The notes under the pieces: generated by a model
Told to the model about the DNA's origin: nothing
The model's database searches: none
The model's input: the letters and a program-made list of their open reading frames with translations, nothing else
From: an uncultured Eubacterium sp.
GTDB taxonomy: Bacteria > Bacillota_A > Clostridia > Lachnospirales > Lachnospiraceae
Assembly (NCBI GenBank): GCA_948468465.1
Contig: CAOKJJ010000096.1
Coordinates: forward strand, 1 to 17,978
Direction of reading: 5' to 3'
DNA length: 17,978 nucleotides
Made by a program: the position numbers and the translations under genes
Shown here: piece by piece, positions 1 to 17,978 of the stretch
Layout: each line of letters opens with the position of its first letter
How positions within the stretch are numbered: the first letter of the stretch is position 1

Positions 1-20
1 CTTAGCTGGGCGCACAGAGT

Positions 21-1312: not shown

Positions 1313-1408
1313 ACTTTTATTACCCCTTCTCCAAAGGCAAATGCGCAAGCAATTAGTCAAATGTAACGATAACCAACAAGTACATCCAAAATCTACTTTT
1401 TCAGACAT

Positions 1409-1437: not shown

Positions 1438-1510
1438 TGAATTATTAAATGAATTTTTAAATTACCTCTCAATGGATGTACTGCAACTTTTCTCATAAAT
1501 TATTTTAATA

Positions 1511-1573
1511 AAAAAGTGATATAACTTGAAAAGGTTTTATCTGACACCTTTTATTTCAAATTCTATCACTTTT
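1511..1573. repeat. Long A+T-rich inverted repeat, copy A (possible terminator)
   Basis: The arms at 1511-1534 and 1547-1573 pair with a few mismatches: AAAAGTGATA, then TTGAAA-like sequence, then AAAAGG/CCTTTT next to a 12-base loop. On the minus strand the structure ends in six T residues, so it could end transcription coming from the AlbA_2 gene. The same inverted repeat, diverged, lies at 8845-8910 upstream of fic. The pair could also be a small palindromic repeat family. Together with the yhcG promoter and direct repeat copy 2, it accounts for most of the 350-bp gap 1409-1762. Confidence 0.6.
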
Positions 1574-1610
1574 CTACAATATACCCTATTTTTCGACCAG
1601 TTATGCCATT

Positions 1611-1710
1611 GTCAGATTCTGTCAAGCACGGACTAAAAATATTTTGTAAGTAAAGTATGAATTCTATCTAAACTTATCATTTTTTGTCTAATATTTTGAA
1701 TTTCATTCAT
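1611..1710. repeat. Direct repeat copy 2, downstream of the AlbA_2 gene
   Basis: Partner of 76-178; positions 1611-1649 are identical to 76-114, and the later part shares blocks such as TCTAAA and TTTTGTCTAAT. It contains TTGACA on the minus strand, but no -10 box follows at a suitable distance, so I do not call a promoter. Confidence 0.75.
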
Positions 1711-1762
1711 TTCTTTTCACTTACATATTTCATAATAGTAAAATAAATGGTCGTTTCAACAT

Positions 1763-3301
1763 TTACTGTTTCATTTCTTTATCATATACAAATCTGTATT
1801 TCCCTTTCCCTTTTCCTTTTACTGTCACTACAACTTCCATATCACGTAATTTTTTCATAATATCCTTGGATGAAGATGCAGAGCATTTAAGTATATCTTT
1901 TACTTCCGGTGCACCAAAAACCTGATTTGCTTCAATCATATTATATACCAGAATGATATTTGCCTTCGTTGGTTCATTATAATGCTGTACCTCAATAATA
2001 CTGTTTAAAGTTTCAATAGCCAGCTTCTTATTCCCAAAAGCCGTTTTTTGATATCCAAAAGCCAGCTTTTTATTCTGAATAGCTGAATTTTCTGCTTCAA
2101 AAGCCAGGTTATCTGACAGATCTGTCTCTTTCTCAAACGCAGAATTATAAATAACCGCCTGAAGCAGAAATACATTCGTGCAATACTCAGGCCCCTGCAG
2201 CCCCTTTGCTTCCATTTCCTGGCACATACGGTCTACGCCTTCTCCATATTCCTTAACAAAGTCAAACGCCCTTAAAAACTCAGCAATTTTAGGATTCCTT
2301 GAAAAATGCGTATGCCTTATATTATCTGCCCTCACAAGTCCAGGCAGCTTCCCGGGGCTTTCTACAACAATACGGTTGTCAAACATCTTGATCTGTATAT
2401 CAGTCCCGCTGATGCTGTATGCCCGGTGTGTTACTGCATTGACAATAATTTCCTGCCGCACAAATTTAGGATATTCTTCTTCGGTTACAAACAGTCCGTC
2501 TTTTCCAAGGTAAGTTTTTTCCTTGATCTGCGTACTGAGATAAGCTATGGAATCCGTAATCATTTTTAAAACATTCCCTTCAAAAATAACATCTTTGACC
2601 ACATTCATCTCAGCACCAAATTTCTCCTCTATTCCCTCATACCTTATAAACCGCACACGGGCACGCGGAAAAAAATCCTGCGGTTTCCTGCCAAATAACA
2701 GAACTGCCGCTGTGCTGACCTGCATTTTTCCGTCTCTTAGTTTTACAAATCCCCTATTCTCCATAAGAAATTCCTGTGCACTTTTCCGATACCCAATTTT
2801 TCTGGTATATTCCTCTACAAATTCTATATCCAGATCATCTATGCATGCCCCCGGCACCGGCTTATCCTCAAAAAACCTTTCCCCTTTATCATAAGTAAGC
2901 TGCAGCCTGTCATTAAATTCCAGTTTCTTTGACTTGTCGCCTACACGCAGGTAAACTTCATCTGCCTGGTTTGCATGTACATGCGGGCTTGGCTCTATAT
3001 GCATCAGTAAGACATGGTTGTTCCTGCCGTTAAAGTCTATGCATGGCACTTTTTCTATGGCAGCCTGCACTGTTGGCTCACAGAAGTCATACGGAACCCT
3101 GAGCAGTTCATTCATCTGCAGCACATTATCATCTGTCCCTTCAATCCTTCTGGTTTTATCTGAAATGCCAATGGCAACTGTTCCACCGTCAGCGTTTGCA
3201 AAAGCAACAAGCGTAACTGCCAGTGCTTTTGGATCAATATTTATGCTCTTGCGGTCAAAAATCTGCATTTCATCGAATGCTAAAATCTCTTCAATGGTCA
3301 T
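1763..3301 (-). CDS. AlbA_2/Schlafen-type ATP-binding, putative DNA-binding protein (COG2865-like)
   Basis: A 512-aa protein. Residues 12-48 (FDRKSIN... NADGGTVAIGISD) fit the AlbA_2 (Schlafen AlbA_2) fold, a nucleic-acid-binding or nuclease-like domain. Residues 283-297 (QEIIVNAVTHRAYS), 307-321 (FDNRIVVESPGKLPG) and 351-359 (EYGEGVDRM) fit the GHKL-like ATP-binding domain found in COG2865 proteins. Residues ~398-439 are heptad repeats, and the last ~75 residues look like a winged helix. The start is ATG 3301 behind AGGAAGGGG, only 26 bp after the gajB stop, so it is probably translated from the Gabija-like operon. Related proteins are annotated as transcriptional regulators or RNA/DNA-binding proteins, and some sit in defence islands. 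Its role here, as effector or regulator, is inferred only from position. Confidence 0.85.
   Translation of the reverse strand: MTIEEILAFDEMQIFDRKSINIDPKALAVTLVAFANADGGTVAIGISDKTRRIEGTDDNVLQMNELLRVPYDFCEPTVQAAIEKVPCIDFNGRNNHVLLMHIEPSPHVHANQADEVYLRVGDKSKKLEFNDRLQLTYDKGERFFEDKPVPGACIDDLDIEFVEEYTRKIGYRKSAQEFLMENRGFVKLRDGKMQVSTAAVLLFGRKPQDFFPRARVRFIRYEGIEEKFGAEMNVVKDVIFEGNVLKMITDSIAYLSTQIKEKTYLGKDGLFVTEEEYPKFVRQEIIVNAVTHRAYSISGTDIQIKMFDNRIVVESPGKLPGLVRADNIRHTHFSRNPKIAEFLRAFDFVKEYGEGVDRMCQEMEAKGLQGPEYCTNVFLLQAVIYNSAFEKETDLSDNLAFEAENSAIQNKKLAFGYQKTAFGNKKLAIETLNSIIEVQHYNEPTKANIILVYNMIEANQVFGAPEVKDILKCSASSSKDIMKKLRDMEVVVTVKGKGKGKYRFVYDKEMKQ
1985..2110 (-). repeat. 21-bp/7-residue repeats inside the AlbA_2 gene
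   Basis: Residues 398-439 read as six consecutive 7-residue units: NLAFEAE, NSAIQNK, KLAFGYQ, KTAFGNK, KLAIETL, NSIIEVQ. The consensus is (K/N)-x-A-(F/I)-x-x-(K/Q). In DNA, AAAAGCC(A/G) recurs about every 21 or 42 bases. The units lie in the linker between the ATP-binding domain and the C-terminal winged-helix-like part, so repeat number could vary without breaking the frame. Confidence 0.7.
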
Positions 3302-3327
3302 CTGTCTGCCCCTTCCTGTGCTTGTTT

Positions 3328-5379
3328 CTAATTGAAAATACAGTCTAATGTTTCTTTTACTTTGACAGAATCACCTGTGTAAATTATCCTCAAATGTTTC
3401 TTAGCCCGTGTTACAGCCACATACAAAAGGTTTCTTGCTTTCTCATATTTCATAATCTGCTGCTCTGTTTCCAGTCCAGTGTAATTTTCCAAAAATTTTT
3501 TTATAAAAACTTTATCCTCCTTTTTCTTTCCAAATCCATCTTCCAATACAATTAGTACATTTTCAAACTCCAGTCCCTTTGTTCCATGAAAAGTATGATA
3601 TATAACTTCCATTTTCTCATTACGTTCGATATAATTAAACCATTTTTCCAGTTCCGCCATGCTGACAGACAAAAGCTGCCTGACTCTGTTCAGACTCTCG
3701 TCTTCATCTTCATTTCCATCTTTTTCATCAAACTGCTGCTGTTCTAATACCTGCATAAAATATCCCGTAATATAATCACTTGTAATTTCATCCAAATCTA
3801 AAACAGCCTTTATTATGGTTCGGATATTATTGCTGCCCGCTTTATATTGCTCACACATCTGCAGCAAATAACTCCCTAATGTGTCGCCATCAATTTCTAA
3901 CAAGTTCTTTTTTATTGTTTTAAGCTGGGTAATATTTAACTCCTGATTGTCTTTTACGCCGCCATACAAAATTTTTTCAACCGGCGTCCCTTCCAATCTA
4001 ATGTCCACATAAAATTTAAGAATACGATATAAAAATGAAGCCGCCTTCCCAAGTTTTTCAGTATCTGTAGATAATAATTCCGTATTCAGCTGCTGAAAAT
4101 GAGCTCCTGAATATGCTGCCGATTTTTTAAAGATGTCATATAGATTGGAAATCCCTATTCTGTGCGCAACTTCTTCATTTTTTAGGACAAAACAATGTAA
4201 TTTTCCTTCATGCATATCCTTCCATTCATTTTTGCATTTTTCTATTGCTGCATCTATAGAATCCATATCATAATAAGCAACGCTTCCTCCTATACAGTCC
4301 ATAAAAATAGAGTTCTGCTGCATACCGTCTAAACGAATTTTATTTGCTATATCAATGATCTCTTTATACGAACGTCGGTTAAACTCCTTATTGACTTTTT
4401 TTAAACCAGAATGATATTCTAAAAGACGACATCCAATTCCATCATCATAAATATTCTGCACCTGGTCACCGTAATACCCTACAAAAAATGTACGCTGCAT
4501 TTCACCTGCGTGCCTATCGAGCGCTGCCATAATTTCAACCACTTCTATAGATGTGTCCTGATACTCATCTATAAATATATACGGAAATTGATCAAAAATA
4601 ATCTGCTGCAAAACCGGATATCTTAATATCAGTTTTTTTCCATATTCCAGTAAAGTATCATGACTGATTCTCATCCATTCCAAACGATCCTGATTATACA
4701 TTGCATTATACTCAATTTTTCTTAGTTTCCCCTGTGCTATTTTGGAAACACATATTTCATATCTCTTAATTTCATACAATTTACCAACAATTGCGCGGAA
4801 ATTTTTTATATTATCCATAATATTCGGATATTGCGCCACATAACCGCCAAAATGATTTCGAAATTCATCAGCACTCATTGAATATCCCTGATAAAATTCA
4901 TCCTTATAAATCCATACCTCTTCTTCAAATGTTTTTCTATCCTCAGTTGATAATTCCCAAAATGTCTTATAAATCTTTAATGATTCATTTGACAATTCTG
5001 CCCTATCATCAGCTATTATACCCTCCATTTTTTCTTTGTGTAACATTAGCAGTTCTTTCTGATATCCTTTAATCAGCCGCCATAATCTTTCATGAATTGT
5101 GGATACCACAGCAAGATTCGAATTGCCAATCTTATCTTTTACATGATTGGCAGCCACATTTGTATATGTAATACACATAATTTTCTGGTTATGTCTTTCC
5201 AATTGCGCCCCATATCTCTGAATTACATATTGAAGTGATTCTACCAGCGCATATGTTTTCCCCGAACCTGCACCAGCATCAAAAACCAGACTTTTGCTTT
5301 CATCAATGCATTTAAACAACTGATGCAAAATTTCGCGCTCCCGCTCCCTCTTTACCGGATCAATCTCCTGTAATCCCAT
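3328..5379 (-). CDS. gajB: GajB-like UvrD/Rep superfamily 1 helicase
   Basis: A 683-aa superfamily 1 DNA helicase with all main motifs: Walker A AGAGSGKT (residues 35-42), Walker B DEYQDT (271-276), GDQVQNIYDD (304-313), NRRS (334-337), motif V HGTKGLEFENV (598-608) and motif VI VAVTRAKK (654-661). I chose ATG 5379 because AGGAGG lies 9 bases upstream. The frame is open to a TTG at 5409, and another ATG at 5388 sits directly on the GGAGG. The start overlaps the end of gajA by 20 bp, so translation is probably coupled. In known Gabija systems a UvrD-like GajB assembles with GajA and helps control DNA cleavage during phage infection. It is longer than the ~500 residues of the best-studied GajB, so this may be a divergent Gabija subtype. 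I cannot exclude another OLD-helicase pair. Confidence 0.85.
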   Translation of the reverse strand: MGLQEIDPVKREREREILHQLFKCIDESKSLVFDAGAGSGKTYALVESLQYVIQRYGAQLERHNQKIMCITYTNVAANHVKDKIGNSNLAVVSTIHERLWRLIKGYQKELLMLHKEKMEGIIADDRAELSNESLKIYKTFWELSTEDRKTFEEEVWIYKDEFYQGYSMSADEFRNHFGGYVAQYPNIMDNIKNFRAIVGKLYEIKRYEICVSKIAQGKLRKIEYNAMYNQDRLEWMRISHDTLLEYGKKLILRYPVLQQIIFDQFPYIFIDEYQDTSIEVVEIMAALDRHAGEMQRTFFVGYYGDQVQNIYDDGIGCRLLEYHSGLKKVNKEFNRRSYKEIIDIANKIRLDGMQQNSIFMDCIGGSVAYYDMDSIDAAIEKCKNEWKDMHEGKLHCFVLKNEEVAHRIGISNLYDIFKKSAAYSGAHFQQLNTELLSTDTEKLGKAASFLYRILKFYVDIRLEGTPVEKILYGGVKDNQELNITQLKTIKKNLLEIDGDTLGSYLLQMCEQYKAGSNNIRTIIKAVLDLDEITSDYITGYFMQVLEQQQFDEKDGNEDEDESLNRVRQLLSVSMAELEKWFNYIERNEKMEVIYHTFHGTKGLEFENVLIVLEDGFGKKKEDKVFIKKFLENYTGLETEQQIMKYEKARNLLYVAVTRAKKHLRIIYTGDSVKVKETLDCIFN

Positions 5380-7558
5380 TCCTTCCATCCTCCTCCAGTT
5401 TTCCTCCAAGCCAGTCTAATCCCTCTTTTATATAATTAGGCAATTCAGGCCTTTTTTCAGAGTCTTTCTCCACAATTAATGCATATAACAGTTCACTGGC
5501 AAATTTCCCTTTTTCATTTGATAATTTTGCCTGCCACTTATATGACTGTTCCCTATTCTGATTCAAATCAGCTTTTTTTCCTGATCCAACTATGTCTTTA
5601 TAAATCTGTGGCTTTACTTTTTTCAATACATTATTTAAAAGATTATTTTCCGCATTTGTTAAAATAAATGCTTCCTCAAAACTCGTTGGGTAATATTCAC
5701 CTATTTTTTTCTGGTATGCAATATAAATGTTATCTTCTAACATATACGGCTTTATATTTGTCAGACTGTAAGCCTTATGAAAATACTTAATTGTTTTATT
5801 ACTGGTCTTCTGTCCTTTTAAAGTTTTAATCTGCGGATAATCATCTTGCTTTTTTTCTACTCCTTTCTCAATACCATCATCCTTTTTCTTTTTTTCTGGA
5901 CGGTTTATATCCAAATCTGTAATAATAAGCGCTGGAATATTCAATTTTTTTAGCAAGTTTTTATATATAAAAGCATGAGCCCCGCTGATCCCAAAAAGAG
6001 AAATATATCGTTTATTCAATTCTTCTTTTTCTTCAATGTAAAATGGCAGTATTGTTTCTTCTGCGAATCCTTCAACCAGTATCACCGCATCTGCAAAAAA
6101 TAATTCTGATACTTTATACTTAATGTGTTTTTTCAAAAAGGCAAAATCATCTTTTTCATCAGGCATAACTGCTGCATCGTCCAAATTTGCGACACATGCC
6201 ATGTTTCCTTCCGCATAAACATAGCAGATATCATCAAATGAATTGCCCATATGAACTTTGCTGTTCAAAATATGGGAAGAATGGGTTGTGACAATTAATT
6301 GGCTATTTAGTTTTCTTTTTTTATCCTCAATCAGCTTTTTCAAGGCTTCATTTATATTTTTAATAAACAATTCTTGCATTTGCGGGTGCATAAAAGATTC
6401 TGGTTCTTCTATTGCGATCAAATTAATTTTACTGTTATTTTTTTCTTCCGGATAATGTTCCATATAATCTATTAATTCTGCAATTATCATTACTAAATGA
6501 GTATATCCAAGACCATACTGGTCTTCGGGAATATTCAGCCCTTTCTCTACATACTCATAAAGCAGAAAACCTCTGACAAGCTTTTCCTCCGTAATATCCA
6601 TACTTAAATTTACTTTCATCACGTCGGACGCAACGATTCTTCCAATCGCATTATTAATGGCTTCGTGATGATGCTCTCTGATTCGTTTTGTCAGATTATT
6701 ATTGATAATATCTATATTTTTTTCCAATTCCAGACGCTTGCTTTCTACAATACTGTCATATCGGTAGGAAATGATTCTGTTAAATGCCTCCGTTAAAGCA
6801 TTAGCCCTTTTTACATTATTGGCAGATATACACTTGATATCTATTAAATTGGACAGCTTAAAATTACTATCGATACGTTCTGCTGCTAATTCATTTTCGG
6901 TTTCTTCTATACTTTTTTGATAATAGTTTATTTGAAATGACACTTTTTCCAGTTCCTTAAACATGATTTGAAAATCTGTTTTTACTTCCCCGCCAGAATT
7001 TTTCTGATCATTTCTTTTTTCTGCTTCTCTGGCTAATACCCTTTTACATGAATTCGCTATAGCTTCATTAAACTTTTCTTCTTCTGAAATCTCATATTTT
7101 ACAATGATTTCTATTTCTTCTCTCTCTACATCTCTCAATAACATAAAAGGTACAAGATTAGTAACCAGATCATCACTATTTTTTTCAAGGGCAATTGTTA
7201 AAACAAACTCTATCCATGGCGGTTCGAATAAAGCTGCTTCTCCCTCAATTTTATATCCATCCAGATAATGCTGAAAGCATTCTCCCAAATAGTGAAAATT
7301 AATATCTTTTACCTGCAGCCTATAGATGTCACTATTCTTTATCATTTTTAATAAAGCCTGGATCACTGATGTTTTACCCGTATTATTTTTTCCAACAATA
7401 AGTGTTGTTGATGAAGCAACATCTATGTTTGGTTTACTTTCATTTTTACCAACACGTGTATCTTTAACTTTTATTCCGTCAGCATTTACAAAAGTAAAAA
7501 TATTATGTTCATTCCTATATTTTCTAAAATTTTTCATCTGTAATTTCTTTAAGTACAT
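5360..7558 (-). CDS. gajA: GajA-like OLD-family ATPase/TOPRIM endonuclease
   Basis: A 732-aa OLD nuclease. The ABC-type ATPase half has Walker A GKNNTGKTS (56-64), a signature-like YGLGYTH (348-354), Walker B LIAIEEPES (380-388) and the H-loop TTHSSH (424-429). The TOPRIM half has its acidic motif VEGFAEE (495-501) and the metal-binding TDLDINRP (547-554). A Lys/Glu-rich, probably helical insert lies around 150-300. The start ATG 7558 has AGGAGG 8 bases upstream. Immediate coupling to a UvrD-type helicase gene is the Gabija layout, in which GajA is a DNA endonuclease inhibited by nucleotides and released when these run low during infection. It is longer than typical GajA (~580 aa). All catalytic motifs are present, so it is probably active. 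Confidence 0.87.
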   Translation of the reverse strand: MYLKKLQMKNFRKYRNEHNIFTFVNADGIKVKDTRVGKNESKPNIDVASSTTLIVGKNNTGKTSVIQALLKMIKNSDIYRLQVKDINFHYLGECFQHYLDGYKIEGEAALFEPPWIEFVLTIALEKNSDDLVTNLVPFMLLRDVEREEIEIIVKYEISEEEKFNEAIANSCKRVLAREAEKRNDQKNSGGEVKTDFQIMFKELEKVSFQINYYQKSIEETENELAAERIDSNFKLSNLIDIKCISANNVKRANALTEAFNRIISYRYDSIVESKRLELEKNIDIINNNLTKRIREHHHEAINNAIGRIVASDVMKVNLSMDITEEKLVRGFLLYEYVEKGLNIPEDQYGLGYTHLVMIIAELIDYMEHYPEEKNNSKINLIAIEEPESFMHPQMQELFIKNINEALKKLIEDKKRKLNSQLIVTTHSSHILNSKVHMGNSFDDICYVYAEGNMACVANLDDAAVMPDEKDDFAFLKKHIKYKVSELFFADAVILVEGFAEETILPFYIEEKEELNKRYISLFGISGAHAFIYKNLLKKLNIPALIITDLDINRPEKKKKDDGIEKGVEKKQDDYPQIKTLKGQKTSNKTIKYFHKAYSLTNIKPYMLEDNIYIAYQKKIGEYYPTSFEEAFILTNAENNLLNNVLKKVKPQIYKDIVGSGKKADLNQNREQSYKWQAKLSNEKGKFASELLYALIVEKDSEKRPELPNYIKEGLDWLGGKLEEDGRNGITGD

Positions 7559-7589
7559 GATATATTCCTCCTAAGTTAAATTAATGCCG

Positions 7590-7619
7590 ATTATGCTCAT
7601 CTTTGTATCGTCTATTCAA
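7590..7619 (-). promoter_or_regulatory. Possible promoter of the gajA-gajB-AlbA_2 operon
   Basis: On the minus strand, TTGAAT (7614-7619) and CATAAT (7590-7595) are 18 bp apart, about 30 bp ahead of the gajA start. This is the best match I see in the 151-bp gap after fic. The boxes are imperfect, and read-through from fic is also possible because no terminator hairpin is evident in the gap. Confidence 0.35.
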
Positions 7620-7709
7620 CATCTGCAACAAAACAATTTCATTTATCTTCCTTCATAATAGATGCCGTTTAATCTCATAATCATGTTATGCTGCTGTCAG
7701 TCTTACTTA

Positions 7710-8831
7710 TTAATTATTCACATATTGAAAAAGACGCAATAACCCATCAAACCTAAACAAACGATACCGCATCTGTCCCTCTGTTTTTAATAAAACTCCC
7801 ATCTCACATAATATTTCTATATATTTTGCAGCGGTATTATATGCCATACCAAATTCTCTCGATACATCGTTAACGCTAATGTATGGATTCTTTTCAATAT
7901 AAGCATATAAACGGAGCAGTATACCGCATGGCTTTCCAAAAATACGTATCTTATGCGTGTTTGTTTTTCTGAGTTCTTTTGCTGTTTCTAACTGACAAAT
8001 TGTATTTTCAGCAGACACAGCAATTCCGTTAATAAAAAATCTTAGCCATGCTGAAAAATTGCTAAAATGCTGGATATTTGTGAAATGTCTAAGACATTCA
8101 TCCTTTCCTTCCAATAGATACGCTGACATTGGAAACGCCGGATATGACAATATCCCTTCCTGCATCAGTATCAGTAAAATAAGAATCCTCCCGACCCTTC
8201 CATTTCCGCTTACAAAAGGATGTATTGTTTCAAACTGATAATACGATATTGCCGCTTTTACCAGCACGTCTGCCGAATGATTCGTCTGAATGAACTGCCT
8301 TAAATCTTCCATCAGCCCCCAAAGCTGATCAGGAGGGGGCGGATTATATTCTTCCATATTCGTTGCATACTGCGGATGCATTAGGAATACTTCCTTTCGG
8401 ATTTCTCCACTTAAGGATGTCAATTCACCTTTCATTATATTTTTATGAATTTTACATAAAACATTTAAAGAAAAAGGCTCTTTTTTCAATTTCTGTAAAG
8501 TGTCACAATAGTTTTTCACCATGATACCATCCGCCGTCTGTTTAGAAAAAATTAAAATGCTCTCCATATCTGCCATGATACCATCAAAAGCACATGAGTT
8601 ACGTGCTTCATTAAGCAAAATCATATGTAAGAATGGTTCTATATCCGGCAGGTTCCTAACTGTTCCCTCCAAAACCCCCAACAAGCGATGCGCCTGTGTC
8701 AGCATATGAGCCAATTCTATATCCATTTTCAAGCAGTCTGTCATTAAAGTCAGCTTATTCGGAAAAAAGCTCCAATGCAAAAAACCATTCACATTCAAAC
8801 AACGATAAAATTCCCCGCTATTATTTTTCAT
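7710..8831 (-). CDS. Fic-domain protein with altered active-site motif
   Basis: A 373-aa Fic protein with an N-terminal Fic_N-like region, a Fic core and a C-terminal winged helix (~300-360). The core motif reads HPFVSGNGRVGR (204-215). Histidine, GNGR and the last arginine are kept, but the acid normally found in HPFx(D/E)GNGR is S208. The N-terminal inhibitory motif, usually (S/T)xxxE(G/N), reads S79-CAF-D83-G84, with Asp for Glu. Fic enzymes usually transfer AMP from ATP to a target hydroxyl, and the acid helps bind Mg2+. AMP transfer may therefore be weak, altered or lost here. The start ATG 8831 follows GAGGATAGGTA. The gene lies 151 bp upstream of gajA on the same strand, and Fic proteins are common in defence islands and toxin-antitoxin-like loci. 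The family call is firm; the biochemical role is uncertain. Confidence 0.88.
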   Translation of the reverse strand: MKNNSGEFYRCLNVNGFLHWSFFPNKLTLMTDCLKMDIELAHMLTQAHRLLGVLEGTVRNLPDIEPFLHMILLNEARNSCAFDGIMADMESILIFSKQTADGIMVKNYCDTLQKLKKEPFSLNVLCKIHKNIMKGELTSLSGEIRKEVFLMHPQYATNMEEYNPPPPDQLWGLMEDLRQFIQTNHSADVLVKAAISYYQFETIHPFVSGNGRVGRILILLILMQEGILSYPAFPMSAYLLEGKDECLRHFTNIQHFSNFSAWLRFFINGIAVSAENTICQLETAKELRKTNTHKIRIFGKPCGILLRLYAYIEKNPYISVNDVSREFGMAYNTAAKYIEILCEMGVLLKTEGQMRYRLFRFDGLLRLFQYVNN

Positions 8832-8844
8832 TACCTATCCTCAT

Positions 8845-8910
8845 AAAAATGATATAATTTGAAGAAAGCAATTCTCTTACGTCTTTCATTTCAAATTATA
8901 TCACTTTTTT
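8845..8910. repeat. Long A+T-rich inverted repeat, copy B, in the fic leader
   Basis: The arms at about 8845-8868 and 8883-8910 pair as ATGATATAATTTGAA with TTCAAATTATATCA plus flanking A/T and GAAAG/CTTTC, allowing small bulges. This is the same element as 1511-1573. The right arm contains the -10 box of the predicted fic promoter. It could act as an operator or leader hairpin, or be a palindromic repeat unit that happens to supply a promoter. Confidence 0.6.
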
Positions 8911-8922
8911 GAGTTTAATCAA
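8895..8922 (-). promoter_or_regulatory. SigA-type promoter of fic
   Basis: On the minus strand, TTGATT (8917-8922) and a perfect TATAAT (8895-8900) are 16 bp apart, about 65 bp before the fic start. AAAGTGATA (8899-8907) overlaps the upstream side of the -10 box, as a related motif does in the yhcG promoter spacer. Confidence 0.6.
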
Positions 8923-8951
8923 GTTTATCTTTCGCAAACACCTTCGTCCCC

Positions 8952-8984
8952 ATAGCCATCCAAAAAAACGCAACACAATGTCAA
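8952..8984. repeat. Inverted intergenic repeat, left copy (partner 17872-17903)
   Basis: ATAGCCA, then AAAAAAACGCAACA and AATGTCAA match the reverse complement of 17872-17903 with two or three differences and a one-base gap. The two copies enclose the whole flagellin locus, about 8.9 kb apart. No coding sense is seen. The gap 8832-9243 otherwise holds the fic promoter and hairpin, the short repeat at 9046-9063 and the hairpins at 9111-9150 and 9180-9208. Confidence 0.65.
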
Positions 8985-9045
8985 TTCTGTTGCATAGTAT
9001 CAAAATTTTGCCATTTTGCGCAAGAAATTGTTTTTAAGTTCCTAG

Positions 9046-9063
9046 CCTGGATGAATTGGAAAA
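9046..9063. repeat. Short direct repeat CCTGGATGAAYYGGAAAA, left copy
   Basis: Matches 17845-17862 in the same orientation with two differences. It belongs to the mosaic of short repeats shared by the two outer flanks of the flagellin locus. Confidence 0.5.
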
Positions 9064-9110
9064 ATATTGATGAAGTGAAAGAATATAAAACAGAACAAAT
9101 AGTATAAGCG

Positions 9111-9150
9111 AAAAACGCAGGCCGGAAATCTCAAAATAGCTTTCTGGCCT
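9111..9150 (-). terminator. Terminator of the left flagellin copy
   Basis: The stem AGGCCGGAAA (9119-9128) pairs with TTTCTGGCCT (9141-9150) with one G-U pair and a 12-base loop. Read on the minus strand it is followed by GCGTTTTTCG, giving a five-T tail, about 95 bp after the stop codon at 9244. Confidence 0.65.
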
Positions 9151-9179
9151 TATTGTTACCATAGATGTAATTTTTTGAC

Positions 9180-9208
9180 GCTGGATGAGGGACAGAGCCT
9201 CATCCAGC
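9180..9208. repeat. Perfect 11-bp hairpin carrying the GCTGGATGAGG repeat
   Basis: GCTGGATGAGG (9180-9190) pairs perfectly with CCTCATCCAGC (9198-9208) around a 7-base loop. The first arm and preceding GAC match the edge repeats at 17907 and, inverted, at 64-78. On the minus strand it is followed by A residues, not T, so it is not a standard terminator for the flagellin. It may stabilise the transcript's 3' end. Confidence 0.6.
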
Positions 9209-11216
9209 TGGTTTTGACTGGCTTTACGGAAATCTTAAAACTGCTATCGCAGCAGATTTAATAACCTGTTCGGCACTTGGTTTGCCTGTGCAAGCACAGA
9301 ATCCGATACTTGTGTCAACAATTTGTTTTTCAAATACTCCACCATTTCCTTAGCCATATCCGCATCCCTGATTCTGGACTCACTGGCCTGGACATTTTGA
9401 GCAATGTTACGGTTATTCGAATTTAAATATTCGATGCGGTTCTGCAAGGCGCCGTAAGTGCTGCGTCTTTCACTGAGCATATTTATCGCTTCATCTAAAC
9501 GCCGCAGCGCTTTTTCTGCATATTTCGGCTTCGTAATTGTTATTGAGTTTATTTTCAGTGCTGCCGTACCGACACGCAGCCTTGGCAATTCCAGTCCTTG
9601 ATTGCCGAGCGCGCCGACCTGCAGCATAAATCCATCCTGGCTTTTCCGTCCGTTTTCACAATAAAATACAACACCCTTAGCACTGCCTCCGATTTCCGTA
9701 ATCGTATGGCTACCGGCTATTTTATGCGTAATTTTCAGCCGTCCGTTTTCGAGTGAAGCTATAAGCGGTGCTGTCTTCCCGTTATCGTCTCCATGCTCAA
9801 ATTTATCGTTTAAAAAGTCTACGACTTCCTTTGCATTGTAAAATTCCTTGGTAAATGTATAACTATGCGAGACGTTATCCGTTTTTAATGTCAGTGTACG
9901 CTTGTCCGGCGGAAAGATCACGCCGCCGGTAAGGCTCTGCGCTCCCGTTACGTAGGAAGGCTCCGGCTTTCCGTTTGTCTTATAAAATATCGAGCTTGCA
10001 GCGCTGCCGCGCACAGCTTCTAATACATACGTACCAGGCGCGGATTCTATTTTCTGTGAACTTCCAGGTTTTGTAGCTTCCAAAAGTGTAATCTGCAGCG
10101 CGTTTGCATCTATGGCTCCCGCAACTCCGGTGTTATGTCCGCCAACTTCAGCTTTCAGTTCAAATCCGGTAATATTTTTTACTGCAAGCTGTGCATTTAA
10201 CAACGGCGTAAGCGCTGCCGCAAGCTGGCTGCCTGTATAAATGCCTGGCGGTATGGTAACCTCCAGCGGTTTGGAATAATCTTTTTTCAGATCAGGCGGA
10301 TTGCTTTTATAAGTAAGATCCAAAATGAATTTATCATTTACTCCGCTTGCGATTTCAATCGGGTCACTTGTAACATCATAACGTCCGATGATAAACGCTT
10401 CATCATAGCTATGTTGCCCTACCTGAAGAACCGGCTGAGCATTATTTGTGCCGGAAGTATTTACGCAAAAAACATTTTTGTAAAAACTGCTGTTTTGTAT
10501 AGCCGGATCCTTAAAATTTCCATCTAGGGATACTGCATCCATCCGCAGCGAATTGTTGAAAGGGGATATTTTTATTTTTCCAGCTCCAATCTGCGAATCT
10601 ATGACTACCTGCAGTTCGGAGGCAAGCTGCTGAAGTGTATATGCTTTTGCAGGCAGTATTACGTTGCATTTAGTTCCGCTTTCCAGTTCAAATTCAAAAT
10701 TATTATTCGTGTTATCCAGTGTAATACTGGTAAATTTGTTTTCACCCCTCAGCTGCGCATAATCAGGCATATAAGGCCCTATCGGTGTTGGATTCAGTCC
10801 TACAAACGCCACCCATCCACTGCCATCATATCTGGTATCTACATCCAGCGAAAGTTTTTGCGACATGCCGGATAATGTTGTCGTAAGCGTTAAATGATTG
10901 CCGCTTAAAGATGCTTTTAAATTATGCCCGCCTTTCGCAAACTGCTTATTCAGCTCATCTATCAGTCCGGCTCTGGAATAAGTGCCATGATCTAAGTTTA
11001 TCCAAATGTTTCGGCCATTCAGGGCAATACGAAGGCCATCATTATAATCGTCTATCGTAGTACTGCTAAGCGGAATTTCTTTTTGCATCGTAATGGATGC
11101 CATCTGATTAATATCCGGTGCAGTTGATCCTTGAAGATAGTGTTCTTCTCCGGTTGCAGTAAGATGCATGCTGTTTACCTCTCTGCCGGTAAACAGCTGC
11201 GTATAAGCTCCCGAAG

Positions 11217-11234
11217 TATTTGCAAAATATTTGC
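11217..11234 (-). other. Deletion junction in the flagellin pseudogene
   Basis: TATTTGC occurs twice on the plus strand, at 11217-11223 and 11228-11234. In protein terms QIQNGAN is followed directly by FANTSGAYTQLF in a shifted frame, whereas the sister has 65 residues between QIQNGAN and FGSTAGAYNQLF. Two bases remain of the 195 expected, so ~193 bp are missing. Loss by slippage between short direct repeats is the likely cause. Confidence 0.75.
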
Positions 11235-12763
11235 TCCATTTTGAATTTGAATCGGATCTCTCAGTTCAGCCCTCCCTACAATTCTCATATCACCAGAATC
11301 ATAATCCGCTTTCTTGACAAAACCATACTTTGTATCTACAAACAAAGTTTTAAATGTTTCTCCATAAACACCAGAGTGATCAAATTCAAACTCAAGGTCT
11401 TGCCCGGTTGTTTCACTTGTCATACGTAAATAGTGAAATCTGACATATGTATCATTTAAATAAACACTGGGCGTTTCCGGTGCCGTTACAGAGATATCTG
11501 CCCCGGCTATCTTCTTAAACTCCTCGTTCAGAACATACGTCAGATTATCTTTGCTTGTATTGGAAACATCATCTATAATATACTCACCGGCAGGAATCTT
11601 AACGCTAATCTGATTTCCATTATATTTAAAGCTCAGTGTATCATTTGTGTTGTCTATTTTAAGTTTATTTGTAAAATCTTCATGGTAATATGTCTTTCCT
11701 GTAATCATAGCCGGAGTCCCGATCGTAGTCCCGTATCGAATGTTATCATAAAACACCGAGGTATAAATCTGCTCCGAACCAAGCTCCAGCTTAAACATAT
11801 TCCCTTTCAGTCCGGTAATATTGTTATCATAACCTCCGGTAATCTGAATGCAGCTTTGTCCAAACTCTTTTGCTTCCACACCCGGATACCCCGCAAGCTG
11901 CTGATTCAACAGCTTGATCAAGTCATCCCGTGTATATTCTCCGGCTGGTATCTTCATGGATACCGGCGTAGGCTTCGATCCGTCCAACGGCTCAATGTCA
12001 AACTGTATTTCATCATTCTGATCAGTCGTAATCTTAAGCGGCCAGCTGGAATCAAAAGCAGTCGTTCCTAACAGATTCATCGTAGACAGCCCATTATAGC
12101 AGCCATAAATTAAATAAGCCAGGCTCCCATCTACCGAGTCAATCTTCGTCGGCTGTCCGTCCGCACCTTCAAAATTCAGGCTGCAGCGCCCATCCTGCAT
12201 ATATTCCAGAACAAATCCAGGATTTTCCGGACTCATCTGTGCAAACGCGTCGTCAATTTCATCTATCAGCTCCTGTGTCGTATAGATGCCATCCGGTACA
12301 GTAATCGTATAAGTATCCGGTACATATTCTCCAACTGGCAGATGAATATTTAAGCTGTTATCCGGAGCCATAACCGCATGCTGCTGGTTCGAAGCCCATA
12401 CCCTGTTCCCGGCAATCTGATAATAAGAAGGCTCATGCTCCTGAAATACCGGCATGTTATTATAATACGTCGATGTATCTATCCGGTCAATTTCCGCCTG
12501 AATCTTATCCATTTCCATCGCCATTGCCATCCGGTCCTCCGGCGTATTGGTATCATTTAAGGACTGCACGGACAATTCCCGCATACGCTGCAGCATGCTG
12601 TGTATCTCATTCATAGCCCCGTCCGCGACCTGAATGTAGCTCGCGCCTTCTTCCCCATTATTTACCGCTTTGTTTAATCCGCGGATCTGCGCCCGCATTT
12701 TTTCTGAAATACTTAACTGCGCAGGCCCATCCGCAGCTGTATTAATCTGATAACCGCTTCCTA

Positions 12764-12923
12764 GAGCGTGTTTGAAAAATCATTCCCGCGATCTGCACTC
12801 CCCACTTTGCGGAGAATTCATCCCAAATTTAATCAACATAGCCCGCTATGCCTCATAAATTTGGGATAAATTCTCCACAAAGTGTGAAGTACATCTCACG
12901 GAAAGCATTTTTCAAACACGCTC
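12764..12923. mobile_element. 160-bp palindromic MITE inserted in the flagellin start region
   Basis: The ends are perfect inverted repeats (GAGCGTGTTTGAAAAAT and its complement), and nearly the whole element pairs with itself around a central CATAGCCCGCTATG. TA dinucleotides flank it on both sides (12762-12763 and 12924-12925). Taking out the element and one TA restores the flagellin reading CTAGGAAG seen in the sister. It has no transposase, so a full-length relative elsewhere in the genome would have moved it. The TA target duplication fits IS630/Tc1-type or some IS5-type transposases. Element plus duplication is 162 bp, a multiple of three, but it carries in-frame stops. Confidence 0.9.
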
Positions 12924-13122
12924 TAGCTTTTTCGTGCTCTTCTGATAATTACTTGCATTGATGCCATGCTGTTCAGCGGCCATAACAGCGGACATGTTGT
13001 GTAAAATCTGCATGGTCGTTTTTCTCCTTTCACGAGAAGATTTTGTTAACAGTTCAGCAAACTGTCGAAAAAATCTGTTTACAAATTTTCTCTGATACAT
13101 TTGTAATTTATCATGTCTGATT

Positions 13123-13151
13123 ATTATATAACGGGAAATTACTTTTGTAAA
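13123..13151 (-). promoter_or_regulatory. SigA-type promoter P1 of the disrupted flagellin
   Basis: TTTACA (13146-13151) and TATAAT (13123-13128) on the minus strand are 17 bp apart, about 110 bp before ATG 13013. The same two boxes with the same spacing precede the intact copy. A second site near the start codon is degenerate here (TCGACA, 17 bp, CAAAAT), unlike the good one in the sister. No sigma-28-type GCCGATAA box is seen. The 243-bp gap 13014-13256 holds this promoter and the leader of the plus-strand gene. Confidence 0.65.
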
Positions 13152-13256
13152 TACACAAAAAAATGATTTCCCGCACATAAAAAAATCCATCCTGCACATA
13201 ATACATCCTGTATTAAAAATAATTCTATATCAAGAACAAGAAAGAGGTACAAACAC

Positions 13257-13715
13257 ATGATTTTAACAGAAAAAGAAACAACCGCAATCAAAGATTTACA
13301 GACCCAGGAACAAAGCTGCATCGAAAAATACAACCGATATGGCAAAGAAGCTAAAGATACGGTATTGAAAGATCTGTTCCAAAACCTGGAAAAAGAAGAA
13401 AAAGAACACTATGAGTCTCTTGGCAAAGTACTTTCCGGCAGCGTGCCGACATGCAACTGCAACGATAGAGACGGCAAAAACTACAGCCCTCAGGCAACGT
13501 ACAACGCACTGACAGATAATGAAGACAAGAAAAACGACTGCTTCCTTGCAACAGACTGCATCGGCACAGAAAAAATGGTTTCCTCTGAGTACAACTCTAA
13601 TGTCTTCAAGTTCTCTGAGCCAAGCCTGCGCAAATTGCTGGCTGATATCCAGATTGAAGAGCAGAATCACGCAGAAATGCTGTATAAATATAAGACAGTA
13701 AACGGAATGGCTTAA
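13257..13715 (+). CDS. CotF-like spore coat / ferritin-like protein
   Basis: A 152-aa, mostly helical protein starting at ATG 13257 after AAGAAAGAGG. Residues 1-57 (LTEKETTAIKDLQTQEQS...) resemble the CotF-type spore coat proteins of Clostridia. Two ExxH motifs, E48-x-x-H51 and E135-x-x-H138, with E18 and E105 or E111, follow the pattern of a di-iron four-helix bundle. A CNC pair (66-68) plus C95 and C101 lie in the linker. It has no signal peptide or membrane segment. It is the only plus-strand gene, diverging from the left flagellin and converging on the right one. Proteins of this kind are annotated as spore coat proteins, but the metal ligands leave a rubrerythrin-like role open. No functional link with flagella is evident. 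Confidence 0.75.
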   Translation: MILTEKETTAIKDLQTQEQSCIEKYNRYGKEAKDTVLKDLFQNLEKEEKEHYESLGKVLSGSVPTCNCNDRDGKNYSPQATYNALTDNEDKKNDCFLATDCIGTEKMVSSEYNSNVFKFSEPSLRKLLADIQIEEQNHAEMLYKYKTVNGMA

Positions 13716-13733
13716 TTCCTAAAAAAGAGCAGC

Positions 13734-13813
13734 AAAGAACCACTGCACCTGTATGCGGCGTAACAATTCTATGATGTCTGACTGTTACGTGCATACAAGT
13801 GCAGTGGTTCTTT
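13734..13813. terminator. Bidirectional terminator between convergent genes
   Basis: The outer stem at 13734-13756 (AAAGAACCACTGCACC...) pairs with 13791-13813 over 23 bp with one G-U pair, and an inner GTAACA/TGTTAC stem sits within the loop. It lies 19 bp after the CotF-like stop and 15 bp after the intact flagellin stop. The A-rich stretch before it and T residues at both outer ends suit both directions. Confidence 0.85.
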
Positions 13814-13828
13814 CCTTCGTATGAAGCA

Positions 13829-16800
13829 CTACTGCAGCAGATTCAGCAGCCTGTTTGGCAGCTGGTTTGCCTGTGCAAGTACAGAATCCGATACTTGCGT
13901 TAATATTTTGTGTTTCAGGTATTCTACCATTTCCGCAGCCATATCCGCATCGCGCATCCTGGATTCGCTCGCCTGTACGTTTTCAGAGGTGTTCCGGTTA
14001 TTTGCGTTCAGATGCTCAATCCGATTGTGCAATGCGCCGTAAGTGCTGCGCTTCTCACTCAGCATATCTATCGCCTGGTCGAGCCGCTGCAGTGCTTTTT
14101 CTGCATATTTTGGTTTTGTAATGGTAATCGAATTTATTTTCAGCGCTGCCGTACCGACCCGCAGTCTTGGCAGTTCCAGCCCCTGATGGCCCAAAGCGCC
14201 GACCTGCAGCATAAAACGGTCCTGGCCTTTCCGTCCATTTTCACAATAAAAGACGATTCCTTTCGCACTGCCGCCGATTTCGGTAATCGTATGGCTGCCG
14301 ACTACTTTATGTGTAATTTTCAGCCGCCCGTTTTCCAACGACGCTACAAGCGGCGCCGGCTTTCCGTTATCATCTCCGTGTTCAAATTTATCGTTTAAAA
14401 AGTCTACCACTTCATCCGCATTGTAAAATTCCTTTGTAAACGTATAGCTATGCGTGACGCGGTCTGTTTTTAGTGTCAGCGTACGTTTGTCCACCGGAAA
14501 GACCACGCCGCCGGAAAGATTTTGCGATCCGGTTACGTAAGAAGGCTCCGGCTTTCCGGTTGTTTTATAAAAAACAGAACTCGCGGCGCTGCCGCGTACG
14601 CCTTCCAATATATACTCGCCAAGCGGACATTCTATTTTTTGGGTACTGCTTCCCGGTTTGAGCGCTTCTGTAAGCGTCAACTGCAAAACATTAGTATTTA
14701 TCACTCCCGACACTGGAATATCATTATGTGTTCCTATTCCAGCTTTCAGTTCAAATCCGGTAATATTATTTGCTGCCAGCTGTGCATTTAATACCGGTGT
14801 AAGTAAATCGGCAATCTGGCTGCCGGTATAAGTGCCTGCCGGTATCGTAGCTTCCAGCGGTATGGTATAATCTTTTTTCGGATCAGACGGCCGGCTTTTA
14901 TATGTAAGGTCCACAATAAATTTATCATTCATGCCGCTTACAATTTCTATCGGCCCTGTTGTAACATCATAACGTCCAACAATATATGCATCTTCGAAGT
15001 CGTGCTTCCCCTCCTGATTAATTGGCGTTCCTTTATGGCTACCTACCACATTTTTTCCAAATACAGCTTTATAAAAGCTGCTGTTCTCCTTGCCTGGATC
15101 AGTAAAATTACCGTTTAACGCAATAGCCTCCATTTTCAGCTTATTTCCATTGTTCGAAATTTTTATTTTTCCTGCTCCTACCTGCGAATCTATACCAGCC
15201 TGCAGTTCATTTGCCAGTTCCTGTACGGTATAAGCTTTTGCCGGCAGTGTCACGCTGCACTTTGTTCCATCCGTCAATGTAAACTCAAACTGATTATTTT
15301 TCTGATCCAAAGTAATATTCGTAAATTCATGAATACCATATAACTCAGAAAAATCAGGCATATCAGGCCCTGTTGTGACTGGCTCCGTTCCGACAAACGC
15401 TTTCCAGCCATTACTGCTATGCGTATACAAGCTAATCGACAACGTTTGAGATGTGCCAGTCAACGTAGTTGTTAGCGTTAGATGATTGCCCGTCAATGAT
15501 GCCTTTACTTTATGCCCATAATTTGCAAAATTTCTATTTAACTCATCTATCAATCCTTGTCTCGTATAGGTACCATCCGCCAATGTAACAGACATATAAG
15601 AACCATTTAAATTAAAAGCCAACACATTGTTTTGACTGTTAATGGTCGTACTGCTTTGCGGAATTTCATATTTCAGCGTATAAGATGCCATATCCTGTTT
15701 ATCAGGCGCAGTCGATCCCTGCGGATAATGTTCTTCGCCGTATACTGTTTGAGAATCGTACTTCGCCTGTTCCGTCTGGCCGGTAAACAACTGATTATAG
15801 GCACCCGCCGTACTCCCAAACGCAAGATCCGTAACGCTGCCCGCCAGCGCTTTGATCACCAGCCGCTGCCCTGAGGCTGCAAATTCAATCATTCCTTTCT
15901 GGCTGCCCGGCAGCTGATTGTTCAGTTCCGTAATCAAATCTGACAGAGAAGAATAAGTTCCTGGCGGAATCGTTATCGTAAATGCCGGAGTTTTATTTAC
16001 CGATAAAGACAATGTATTTGCCCCATTCTGAATCTGAATCTGTCCAGTTAAATATGCGGCTCCTGTAATCTGCATATCTCCGGAAGAATAGGTAGGATTC
16101 TTTTGAAAATCGTAGTTTGTGATCTCAAACAAAGTCCGATAAGTATCTCCATAGACACCCGTCATGTCAAAATCAAATGTAATATCATTCCCCGTCGAAT
16201 TGCTCGTAAATGATAAATACCTGTAAGTCTCCCATACCTCATTAATATTATCATAAATACTTGGCGCGGAAACAGTAATATCTGCTCCTGGAATATTTTT
16301 AAAAGCTTCATTGAGCACATACGTTAAATTATCCTGGCTTTGCTTTGTTACCAGGTCTATCACATAATCACCTGCAGGTATCTGCACTGTGATCTGGTTT
16401 CCGTTATATTCAAACTTTAAACTGTTATTCGTTTGATTTATCGTGATCTTCTTTGTATAAACAGGATCATAATATGTCTTCCCTGTCAGCAGTGCAGGCC
16501 TTCCGGACGAAATTCCATATTTGATATTATCATAAAACACTGATGTATACGTTTGTCCAGTTGAATTCTCCAACTTAAACATATTCCCTTTCAGTCCGGT
16601 AATGCTGTTATCAAATCCGCCTGTAATCTGAATGCAGCTTTGTCCATATTCTTTTGCTTCCACACCTGGATACCCCGCAAGCTTTTGATTCAGCAGTTTT
16701 ATCATTTCAGTCCGCGTATAATCTCCGGCTGGAATTTTTAACTCCACTAGCGTTGATTGAGAGCCATTCGTAGGCTCAATCATAAACTTCATTTCATCAT

Positions 16801-17638
16801 TTTGCCCATCCGTAATTTTAAGCGGCCAATTCCCATCAAATGCCGTTGTGCCTAACAAACTCATCGAAGAAAGCCCATTATAACAGCCATAAATAAGATA
16901 AGCCAGACTGCCGTCTACCGAATCAATTTTTGCTGGGTTTCCATTTTTACTCCCCTCAAAATTCAGACTGCAGCGCCCGTCCTGCATATATTCCAGCACA
17001 AATCCAGGGTTAGCCGGACGCATCTGCGCAAACGCATCATCAATCTCATCGATCAGTTCCTGTGTCGTATAAATGCCGTCCGGAACAGTAATCGTATAAG
17101 TATCCGGATTGAATTCCCCGGACGGCAAATGAATATTGAGACTATTATCCGGGGCGGCAATCGCATGCTGCTGATTCGAAGCCCATACCCGGTTCCCGGC
17201 AATCTGATAATAAGAAGGTTCATGCTCCTGAAATACCGGCATGTTATTGTAGTAAGTCGTCGTATCAATCCGGTCGATTTCCGCCTGTATCTTATCCATT
17301 TCCATCGCCATTGCCATCCGGTCCTCCGGCGTATTGGTATCATTCAAAGACTGCACGGATAATTCCCGCATACGGTGCAGCATACTATGTATTTCATTCA
17401 TGGCGCCATCCGCAACCTGAATATAACTTGCTCCTTCTTCCCCATTATTTACCGCTTTGTTTAAGCCACGGACCTGCGCCCGCATTTTTTCCGAGATGCT
17501 CAGCCGCGCCGGATCATCTGCAGCCGTATTAATCTGATAACCGCTTCCTAATTTTTTCACGCTTTTCTGATAATTACTTGCATTAATGCCATGCTGTCCA
17601 GCGGCCATAACAGCAGACATATTGTGTAAGATTTGCAT
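13829..17638 (-). CDS. Giant modular flagellin (1269 aa)
   Basis: Flagellin is the subunit of the flagellar filament; its terminal helices pack in the core and its middle is exposed. The N-terminal ~140 residues (NTAADDPARLSISEKMRAQV, GEEGASYIQVADGAMNEIHS) and the last ~95 (RSTYGALHNRIEHLN, ASESRMRDADMAAEM, LAQANQLPNRLLNLLQ) are classical. The middle ~1000 residues replace the short variable domain with eight modules built on V/I-P-A-G-x-Y-T-x-x-x-L-I-x-x-L-N. These centre near residues 185, 302, 420, 557, 686, 798, 932 and 1067. I chose ATG 17638 because GAAAGGAG precedes it and MQILHN matches flagellin starts; the frame also opens at 17686, upstream of the likely transcription start. Typical flagellins have 270-500 aa. 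I found no HExxH protease motif, so it is not a flagellinolysin. All helices needed for export and assembly appear intact. Confidence 0.92.
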   Translation of the reverse strand: MQILHNMSAVMAAGQHGINASNYQKSVKKLGSGYQINTAADDPARLSISEKMRAQVRGLNKAVNNGEEGASYIQVADGAMNEIHSMLHRMRELSVQSLNDTNTPEDRMAMAMEMDKIQAEIDRIDTTTYYNNMPVFQEHEPSYYQIAGNRVWASNQQHAIAAPDNSLNIHLPSGEFNPDTYTITVPDGIYTTQELIDEIDDAFAQMRPANPGFVLEYMQDGRCSLNFEGSKNGNPAKIDSVDGSLAYLIYGCYNGLSSMSLLGTTAFDGNWPLKITDGQNDEMKFMIEPTNGSQSTLVELKIPAGDYTRTEMIKLLNQKLAGYPGVEAKEYGQSCIQITGGFDNSITGLKGNMFKLENSTGQTYTSVFYDNIKYGISSGRPALLTGKTYYDPVYTKKITINQTNNSLKFEYNGNQITVQIPAGDYVIDLVTKQSQDNLTYVLNEAFKNIPGADITVSAPSIYDNINEVWETYRYLSFTSNSTGNDITFDFDMTGVYGDTYRTLFEITNYDFQKNPTYSSGDMQITGAAYLTGQIQIQNGANTLSLSVNKTPAFTITIPPGTYSSLSDLITELNNQLPGSQKGMIEFAASGQRLVIKALAGSVTDLAFGSTAGAYNQLFTGQTEQAKYDSQTVYGEEHYPQGSTAPDKQDMASYTLKYEIPQSSTTINSQNNVLAFNLNGSYMSVTLADGTYTRQGLIDELNRNFANYGHKVKASLTGNHLTLTTTLTGTSQTLSISLYTHSSNGWKAFVGTEPVTTGPDMPDFSELYGIHEFTNITLDQKNNQFEFTLTDGTKCSVTLPAKAYTVQELANELQAGIDSQVGAGKIKISNNGNKLKMEAIALNGNFTDPGKENSSFYKAVFGKNVVGSHKGTPINQEGKHDFEDAYIVGRYDVTTGPIEIVSGMNDKFIVDLTYKSRPSDPKKDYTIPLEATIPAGTYTGSQIADLLTPVLNAQLAANNITGFELKAGIGTHNDIPVSGVINTNVLQLTLTEALKPGSSTQKIECPLGEYILEGVRGSAASSVFYKTTGKPEPSYVTGSQNLSGGVVFPVDKRTLTLKTDRVTHSYTFTKEFYNADEVVDFLNDKFEHGDDNGKPAPLVASLENGRLKITHKVVGSHTITEIGGSAKGIVFYCENGRKGQDRFMLQVGALGHQGLELPRLRVGTAALKINSITITKPKYAEKALQRLDQAIDMLSEKRSTYGALHNRIEHLNANNRNTSENVQASESRMRDADMAAEMVEYLKHKILTQVSDSVLAQANQLPNRLLNLLQ

Positions 17639-17664
17639 CGTCGTCGGTCTCCTTTCGTGAGAAG

Positions 17665-17693
17665 ATTTTATGAACTGTTCCGTCAACTGTCAA
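17665..17693 (-). promoter_or_regulatory. Proximal SigA-type promoter P2 of the intact flagellin
   Basis: A perfect TTGACA (17688-17693) and TAAAAT (17665-17670) on the minus strand are 17 bp apart. The predicted start gives a leader of only about 20 nt that still contains the GAAAGGAG ribosome site. The disrupted copy has a degenerate version, so the intact gene probably has the stronger expression. Confidence 0.6.
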
Positions 17694-17771
17694 CAAAATC
17701 TATCATCTAACTTTTCCTTATATCTTTTCTTATACATTTGCTTATACGCCTGTAATCTATCAAGTAATTCC

Positions 17772-17800
17772 ATTATATAATGGCTGATTGTCTTTGTAAA
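17772..17800 (-). promoter_or_regulatory. Distal SigA-type promoter P1 of the intact flagellin
   Basis: TTTACA (17795-17800) and TATAAT (17772-17777) on the minus strand are 17 bp apart, as in the sister gene at 13123-13151. Conservation of both boxes and spacing while the leaders have diverged supports real use. Confidence 0.65.
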
Positions 17801-17844
17801 GCGATTGTTTATCTCATTCTTTATCCGATCTTATCCTTATCTAA

Positions 17845-17862
17845 CCTGGATGAACCGGAAAA
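17845..17862. repeat. Short direct repeat CCTGGATGAAYYGGAAAA, right copy
   Basis: Partner of 9046-9063, same orientation, two differences. Here it sits just upstream of the intact flagellin promoter; at 9046 it sits downstream of the pseudogene. Confidence 0.5.
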
Positions 17863-17871
17863 GAAACATTT

Positions 17872-17903
17872 TTGACATTTTGTTGCGTTTTTTTGTTGGC
17901 TAT
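17872..17903. repeat. Inverted intergenic repeat, right copy (partner 8952-8984)
   Basis: Reverse complement of the left copy with few differences; the shared core is TGTTGCGTTTTTTT. With 8952-8984 it encloses the flagellin locus. Confidence 0.65.
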
Positions 17904-17906
17904 TCG

Positions 17907-17962
17907 GACGCTGGATGAGGGGTGGGGCCTGGATTTCGGCTCCTACTCCAGAATGTTAAGAA
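17907..17962. repeat. Edge repeat, right copy (partner 21-78)
   Basis: Begins GACGCTGGATGAGGGG and ends GGCTCCTACTCCAGAAT, matching the left edge in reverse. Directly after it, CAGAATG (17949-17955) and CATTCTG (17971-17977) form a small hairpin-like palindrome that ends the window. No gene is visible from 17639 to 17978 beyond the flagellin promoters and these repeats. Confidence 0.7.
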
Positions 17963-17978
17963 TCCCTAAGCATTCTGC

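Follow-up and report, generated by a model that had tools for sequence, protein, structure and literature searches.

What is the long middle of a giant flagellin made of in a gut bacterium, and how did it reach its length? The question is raised by a stretch of 17,978 nucleotides (nt) from an uncultured Eubacterium sp. (assembly GCA_948468465.1, contig CAOKJJ010000096.1, positions 1 to 17,978), which was analysed at its full length and is called the window below. The source is a gut bacterium related to Eubacterium plexicaudatum, whose strain ASF492 is the closest named relative and carries a giant flagellin 80–81% identical to the one described here, among the matches listed. On the minus strand of the window, at 13829..17638, lies an intact gene without internal stop for a protein of 1269 amino acids (aa) and about 139 kDa, P0001, which also provides the residue numbers used throughout. 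Our reading is that P0001 is a true flagellin with a D0/D1 core, and that eight D2-type beta–alpha–beta domains resembling those of Flagellin_IN and FliD form the chain that makes up its surface region; we give this explanation as a whole, inferred assembly included, a probability of about 0.7. The ends are those of an ordinary flagellin, with Flagellin_N (PF00669; Pfam E 2.9e-32) at residues 3–138 (17225..17632) and Flagellin_C (PF00700; Pfam E 3.3e-22) at residues 1183–1268 (13835..14092), and P0001 has the D1 fold of bacterial flagellin (FliC). Between these normal D0/D1 ends is a middle of about 1040 aa, which brings the protein above the 1000 aa that define a giant flagellin, and in which no Pfam family was matched, even up to E 1. 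The FlgL equivalog profile gives P0001 80.1 bits, below its cut-off of 127.2. P0001 has six cysteines; cysteine is usually absent from flagellins.

A hidden Markov model (HMM) of the module finds exactly eight copies in P0001, with independent E-values (i-E) from 2e-8 to 1e-20. All are on the minus strand: module 1 at 16898..17170 (residues 157–247), module 2 at 16532..16819 (274–369), module 3 at 16124..16459 (394–505), module 4 at 15779..16051 (530–620), module 5 at 15401..15658 (661–746), module 6 at 15059..15325 (772–860), module 7 at 14669..14959 (894–990; the weakest, 27.6 bits) and module 8 at 14249..14518 (1041–1130). A pattern search recovers the turn motif at residues 186, 303, 421, 558, 799 and 933; the turns at 687 and 1068 are missed by the strict pattern, and both lie inside modules found by the profile (5 and 8). 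The HMM was built from windows set at the eight turns and is hence not independent, the independent tests being the HHalign controls and the predicted structure. For the former, windows of 106 residues around each turn were taken from an alignment of 102 sequences, namely the fragment from the window and 101 proteins drawn from the 119 others that were listed by a search which scored 7996 candidates and returned 133 proteins, 120 of them listed. All 28 module pairs align at probability 92.0–99.1 (90.6–98.6 in a first run with insert states kept), and none of the 224 controls reaches 90%: the 56 reversed profiles have a maximum of 87.3, with two at 50 or above, and the 168 column-shuffled profiles a maximum of 21.1, with none at 50 or above. 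BLASTP of P0001 against itself returns only the trivial identity match and no match between modules, because the copies are too diverged, so that profile methods are required.

The predicted structure agrees with the profiles. AlphaFold2 models residues 60–1225 from the 102 sequences with a mean predicted local distance difference test score (pLDDT) of 89.4, and places helices at 192–205, 309–320, 438–447, 565–574, 693–706, 805–820, 939–956 and 1074–1087, that is, starting 6, 6, 17, 7, 6, 6, 6 and 6 residues after turns 1 to 8 (module 3 having the helix that begins 17 residues past its turn), with strands on either side; some further short helices appear between modules. The predicted template-modelling score (pTM) is a modest 0.64, so that the relative placement of the modules is not fixed by the model. 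The first-pass annotation had described ordinary flagellin ends around eight diverged modules at these turns, and the Pfam matches, the alignment of all 28 profile pairs at a level that none of the 224 controls reaches, and the eight HMM copies bear it out; its expectation of a repeated domain at all eight positions of a predicted structure is borne out by a helix after every turn. Of the two comparisons that it proposed, the plain self-alignment yielded nothing and the profile–profile comparison succeeded.

The fold of the module is not new: it is that of a flagellin D2 or FliD domain resembling Flagellin_IN. A module matches the flagellin/FliD D2-type fold structurally, and Flagellin_IN (PF07196) and FliD D2/D3 share a common plan with it, a pair of strands, a turn, a helix with LN or IN, and a second pair of strands. 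In profile–profile comparison with Flagellin_IN, modules 3–5 match at 92–93%, two others at 55–58% and three below 8%; PF07196 itself has no match in P0001 up to E 1 and its gathering cut-off is not reached. In the FliD proteins of three loci (L041, L043 and L109) the module profile matches where PF07196 does. Single copies or short runs of the module are also found in FliD, FlgK, a FlgL-like protein and smaller flagellins, the other axial proteins examined having one to about four copies compared with eight to eleven in the giant flagellins. In other families, frames of 892–1152 aa that match the module were considered as giant flagellins, and all four that were examined (L108–L111) proved to be FliD, each with three or four modules. 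Among the domains counted in the middle regions of flagellins, Flagellin_IN ranks first, with 3286 (PMC5595980, Table 1). Other structural likenesses are scattered. Searched with the module profile, the PDB sequences give weak matches only (best E 0.01), a mixture of FliD, adenovirus penton, PBCV-1 capsid protein and unrelated enzymes. Foldseek matches to viral proteins mostly have a template-modelling score (TM-score) of about 0.1 over long alignments; a single-domain viral match, A0A0K2FLG1 (113 aa), has a target TM-score of 0.77 at 2.9 Å and E 3.8e-3. PF01686, by name the adenovirus penton base, has a precomputed match in seven of the 120 listed proteins (P0011, P0016, P0066, P0071, P0107, P0117 and P0118). 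The module may or may not be kin to viral proteins, and we neither claim nor exclude it.

The number of modules varies among relatives. At i-E below 0.001, 97 of the 120 listed proteins (P0001 included) have eight modules, 13 have eleven, one has nine, seven have seven, one has six and one has five, several of the proteins with five to seven being truncated. In a tree of 92 modules from ten proteins, which has few columns and leaves many forks open, the modules in the first, second, next-to-last and last places each make an orthologous group (support 100/99, 99/95, 100/99 and 100/99). In the eleven-module proteins, modules 7 and 8 both belong with module 5 of the eight-module proteins (84/72, which is weak; 88/85 within the group), module 9 pairs with module 6 of the eight-module ones, and module 6 forms a separate group. 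This grouping indicates that the chain grew by duplication, long ago for the eight and more recently in mid-chain, and the growth by repeated duplication that the first-pass annotation had proposed thus finds support in listed homologs with eight, nine or eleven modules and in two of the three extra copies grouping with module 5. The chain would then have grown by tandem duplication of modules, the latest of them in mid-chain. One observation weighs against so simple a story of growth: a genome of the same genus (G001) encodes neighbouring flagellins of 1054 and 668 aa (L107, 189–3350 and 3725–5728, minus strand), neither of which contains a recognised module copy, so that large middles arose in more than one way in the genus.

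How the chain may be arranged in the filament is suggested by the way it varies. Over 101 homologs, the mean identity to P0001 is 57% and 60% in the two D1 halves and, in modules 1 to 8, 62, 55, 33, 38, 34, 28, 37 and 55%. Conserved chain ends and a free middle fit a path that runs out and back, with the middle at the filament surface. We propose that the giant flagellin would be exported and assembled like other flagellins, that its D0/D1 ends would polymerise into a normal core tube, and that the chain would run outward through modules 1 and 2, form a variable outer part with modules 3–7 and return via module 8. The filament would then be coated by a thick layer of beta domains, with a diameter very roughly estimated at 23–41 nm from assumed values of 0.47 nm for the rise and 6.5 nm for the core radius and a packing of 25–100%. 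Filaments of the giant flagellins of Bermanella and Oleibacter measure at least 30 nm (Thomson et al., 2018; PMC6248924). The likely benefit would be a stiffer and wider propeller in viscous gut mucus, together with a changeable outer surface; layers of outer domains have been tied to motility in viscous settings (PMC8931119).

The same variation can be read differently. The modules could be a decoy surface that changes quickly, against antibodies and phages that bind flagella, with thickness as a by-product, an alternative that we regard as possible if somewhat doubtful. The identity of 28–38% in modules 3–7 compared with 55–62% in modules 1, 2 and 8 is in line with it, as are the variable number of modules and the comparison of the gene with its tandem paralog downstream (copy 2, 9244..13013, minus strand), the two being most unlike in mid-gene (about 60–69% DNA identity) and less so towards the ends. 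However, relaxed constraint would yield the same pattern, and between the source species and E. plexicaudatum the ratio of nonsynonymous to synonymous substitution rates (dN/dS) is 0.116 over the whole of copy 1 and 0.098 over that of copy 2. Values for single regions range from 0.02 to 0.23, all of them far below 1, with no sign of positive selection on a whole region. The giant flagellin gene is under purifying selection.

Our proposed assembly also has a competitor, in which small flagellins with D0/D1 only build most of the filament and the giant one is a minor or special component of some part of it, as scattered decoration or adhesin; we entertain this tentatively, as plausible rather than probable. 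E. plexicaudatum does have further frames that resemble flagellins (323, 325, 506, 626 aa and smaller) beside its giant pair, but some of these may be FlgK or FlgL, and the giant flagellin of Bermanella marisrubri is, according to its authors, the only filament flagellin (PMC6248924). Expression may also be separate, as all four giant copies of the two species have a sigma-A-like promoter and a search of the window for the sigma-28 consensus found none. The promoter sequence, TTTACA-N17-TATAAT, lies at 17772..17800, 134 nt upstream of the intact gene, and at 13123..13151, 110 nt upstream of copy 2, on the minus strand and as an exact consensus match in both cases; with one mismatch allowed, 0.41 matches are expected by chance, and 13 of 200 shuffles had two or more. 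Both hexamers are invariant in the four copies, which suggests, from sequence, a housekeeping transcription of the giant flagellin genes. Far more speculative, and improbable in our view, is a further role of the array as an adjustable outer arm, lengthened by duplication of its middle module, whose FliD-cap-like outer domains would link adjacent filaments, zipping E. plexicaudatum's subpolar tuft into one plaited bundle; the describers of this species reported a tuft of flagella.

Copy 2 bears on whether the gene pair is being kept at all. It starts with an ATG at 13013–13011, is open in two pieces (11175–12698 and 9244–11169) with seven recognised modules, and differs from copy 1 by a 162-bp insertion and by 193 missing bp. 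The insert in its N-terminal part (12761..12926, minus strand) is an inverted repeat with 82-nt arms, and in the four genomes of the genus that were searched its family is matched at least 80, 62, 80 and 1 times, counting both strands. With dozens of copies in three of these genomes and a single match in the other one, it is like a miniature inverted-repeat transposable element (MITE). The paralog of E. plexicaudatum has lost single bases at two sites, other than those of the lesions in the source genome, and as the lesions differ and the paralogs apparently predate the split of the species, the second copies seem to have been inactivated independently and recently. That the giant flagellin is being lost in a decaying gene pair is nevertheless unlikely. 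The two differently broken second copies would fit such a loss, as would a relative (G001) with only a remnant (L037, 1306–1713) that matches residues 977–1118 at 41%, and a genus in which only two of 13 genomes match at E 1e-60, many of them being in hundreds of contigs. Yet neither species has a break in copy 1, whose dN/dS is 0.116, the 0.098 of copy 2 implies that most of its history passed under selection, and the single-base lesions of E. plexicaudatum could be assembly errors. Copy 2 was also considered as a silent donor for gene conversion, which is unsupported overall since orthologs are closer in DNA identity (84.8% between the second copies, 78.8% between the first) than paralogs (about 75%); in the conserved ends, where paralogs resemble each other about as much as orthologs do, conversion is possible. 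Finally, chance or the convergence of beta strands could have mimicked true repeats, an idea to which the lack of a BLASTP self match and the low identity to module 6 (12–32% in the 46 other modules) might lend colour, but which is to all intents ruled out by the profile pairs with their clean controls and by the helix past each turn in a confident model.

Other genes of the window surround the flagellin pair. Between the two copies is a 152-aa Coat_F/rubrerythrin-like gene (13257–13715, plus strand), and E. plexicaudatum has a 152-aa frame at the same relative place (L007, 11904–12362, minus strand). Adjoining the pair is a defence-like island on the minus strand, made of a Gabija pair at 3328–7558 (GajA, 5360–7558, PADLOC E 7.3e-191; GajB, 3328–5409, E 5.6e-220) and its neighbours, a YhcG-type PDDEXK nuclease (288–1130), a Schlafen AlbA_2/HATPase_c_4 protein (1763–3301) and a SoFic-like Fic protein (7710–8831). 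A plasmid search by DNA found no match to the window, and Rfam and tRNA scans of it returned nothing.

The first-pass annotation had also placed known giant flagellins in a few marine bacteria and suggested that this modular form may be undescribed in a Clostridia-type genome. The former is too narrow, as giant flagellins are reported from many phyla including Firmicutes, with E. plexicaudatum named among them (Thomson et al., 2018; PMC6248924), and the latter has to be narrowed, the module being an already known kind of flagellar outer domain. The giants of that study resemble P0001 in exceeding 1000 aa and in having normal D0/D1 ends around a large insertion, and that of E. plexicaudatum is our 80–81% identical relative, if the same protein is meant. 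The repeat domains described there are tandem pairs: in the Oceanospirillales giants, a DX insert accompanies two DE regions in tandem, whereas P0001 has eight modules in series and some relatives eleven. Sheath-forming flagellins of E. coli O157:H7 and Achromobacter likewise have several interacting outer domains, which their authors link to viscous environments, but three of them (D2–D4) rather than eight (PMC8931119). Vibrio cholerae flagellins (9n8h and others), with whole chains of 376–379 residues, are too short for such an array. The top Foldseek match to the whole model, the Geovibrio thiophilus flagellin (9au6; 792 aa, E 8.5e-11), has a long outer region, but a root-mean-square deviation of 32.7 Å over the whole alignment means that at most local domains match. 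Flagellinolysins are also flagellins with a large inserted middle; in P0001, however, their NCBIfam profile covers the C-terminal end only (52.6 bits, cut-off 205) and no HExxH motif is found. Our literature search found no description of a flagellin array of eight to eleven modules, the 2024 clustering survey of outer domains (Fields et al.), which may show one, lying outside that search. What seems new here is thus the array of eight to eleven modules, giant flagellins and the module type being already known.

For the family to which these bacteria belong, Lachnospiraceae by the names of metagenome-assembled genomes (NCBI places E. plexicaudatum in Eubacteriaceae), ten of 397 genomes match at E 1e-60, with open frames of 1255–1824 aa. 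In a survey published in 2025, only one of 54 Bacillota flagellins had outer domains (PMC12445082), which makes the present group an exception worth knowing. E. plexicaudatum ASF492 is one of the strains of the Altered Schaedler Flora, a defined community used in mice (PMC5884553), and two E. plexicaudatum 'hypothetical proteins' were down more than 1000-fold in mouse gut metaproteomes on a high-fat diet (PMC4919841); several of the listed relatives of the giant flagellin bear that same name, and either of the two proteins could be the giant flagellin. Flagellins with one, two, at least three, eight, nine and eleven recognised copies of one outer domain form a natural ladder, on which the size of the outer layer can be tested against stiffness, swimming in mucus and immune recognition in gut commensals.

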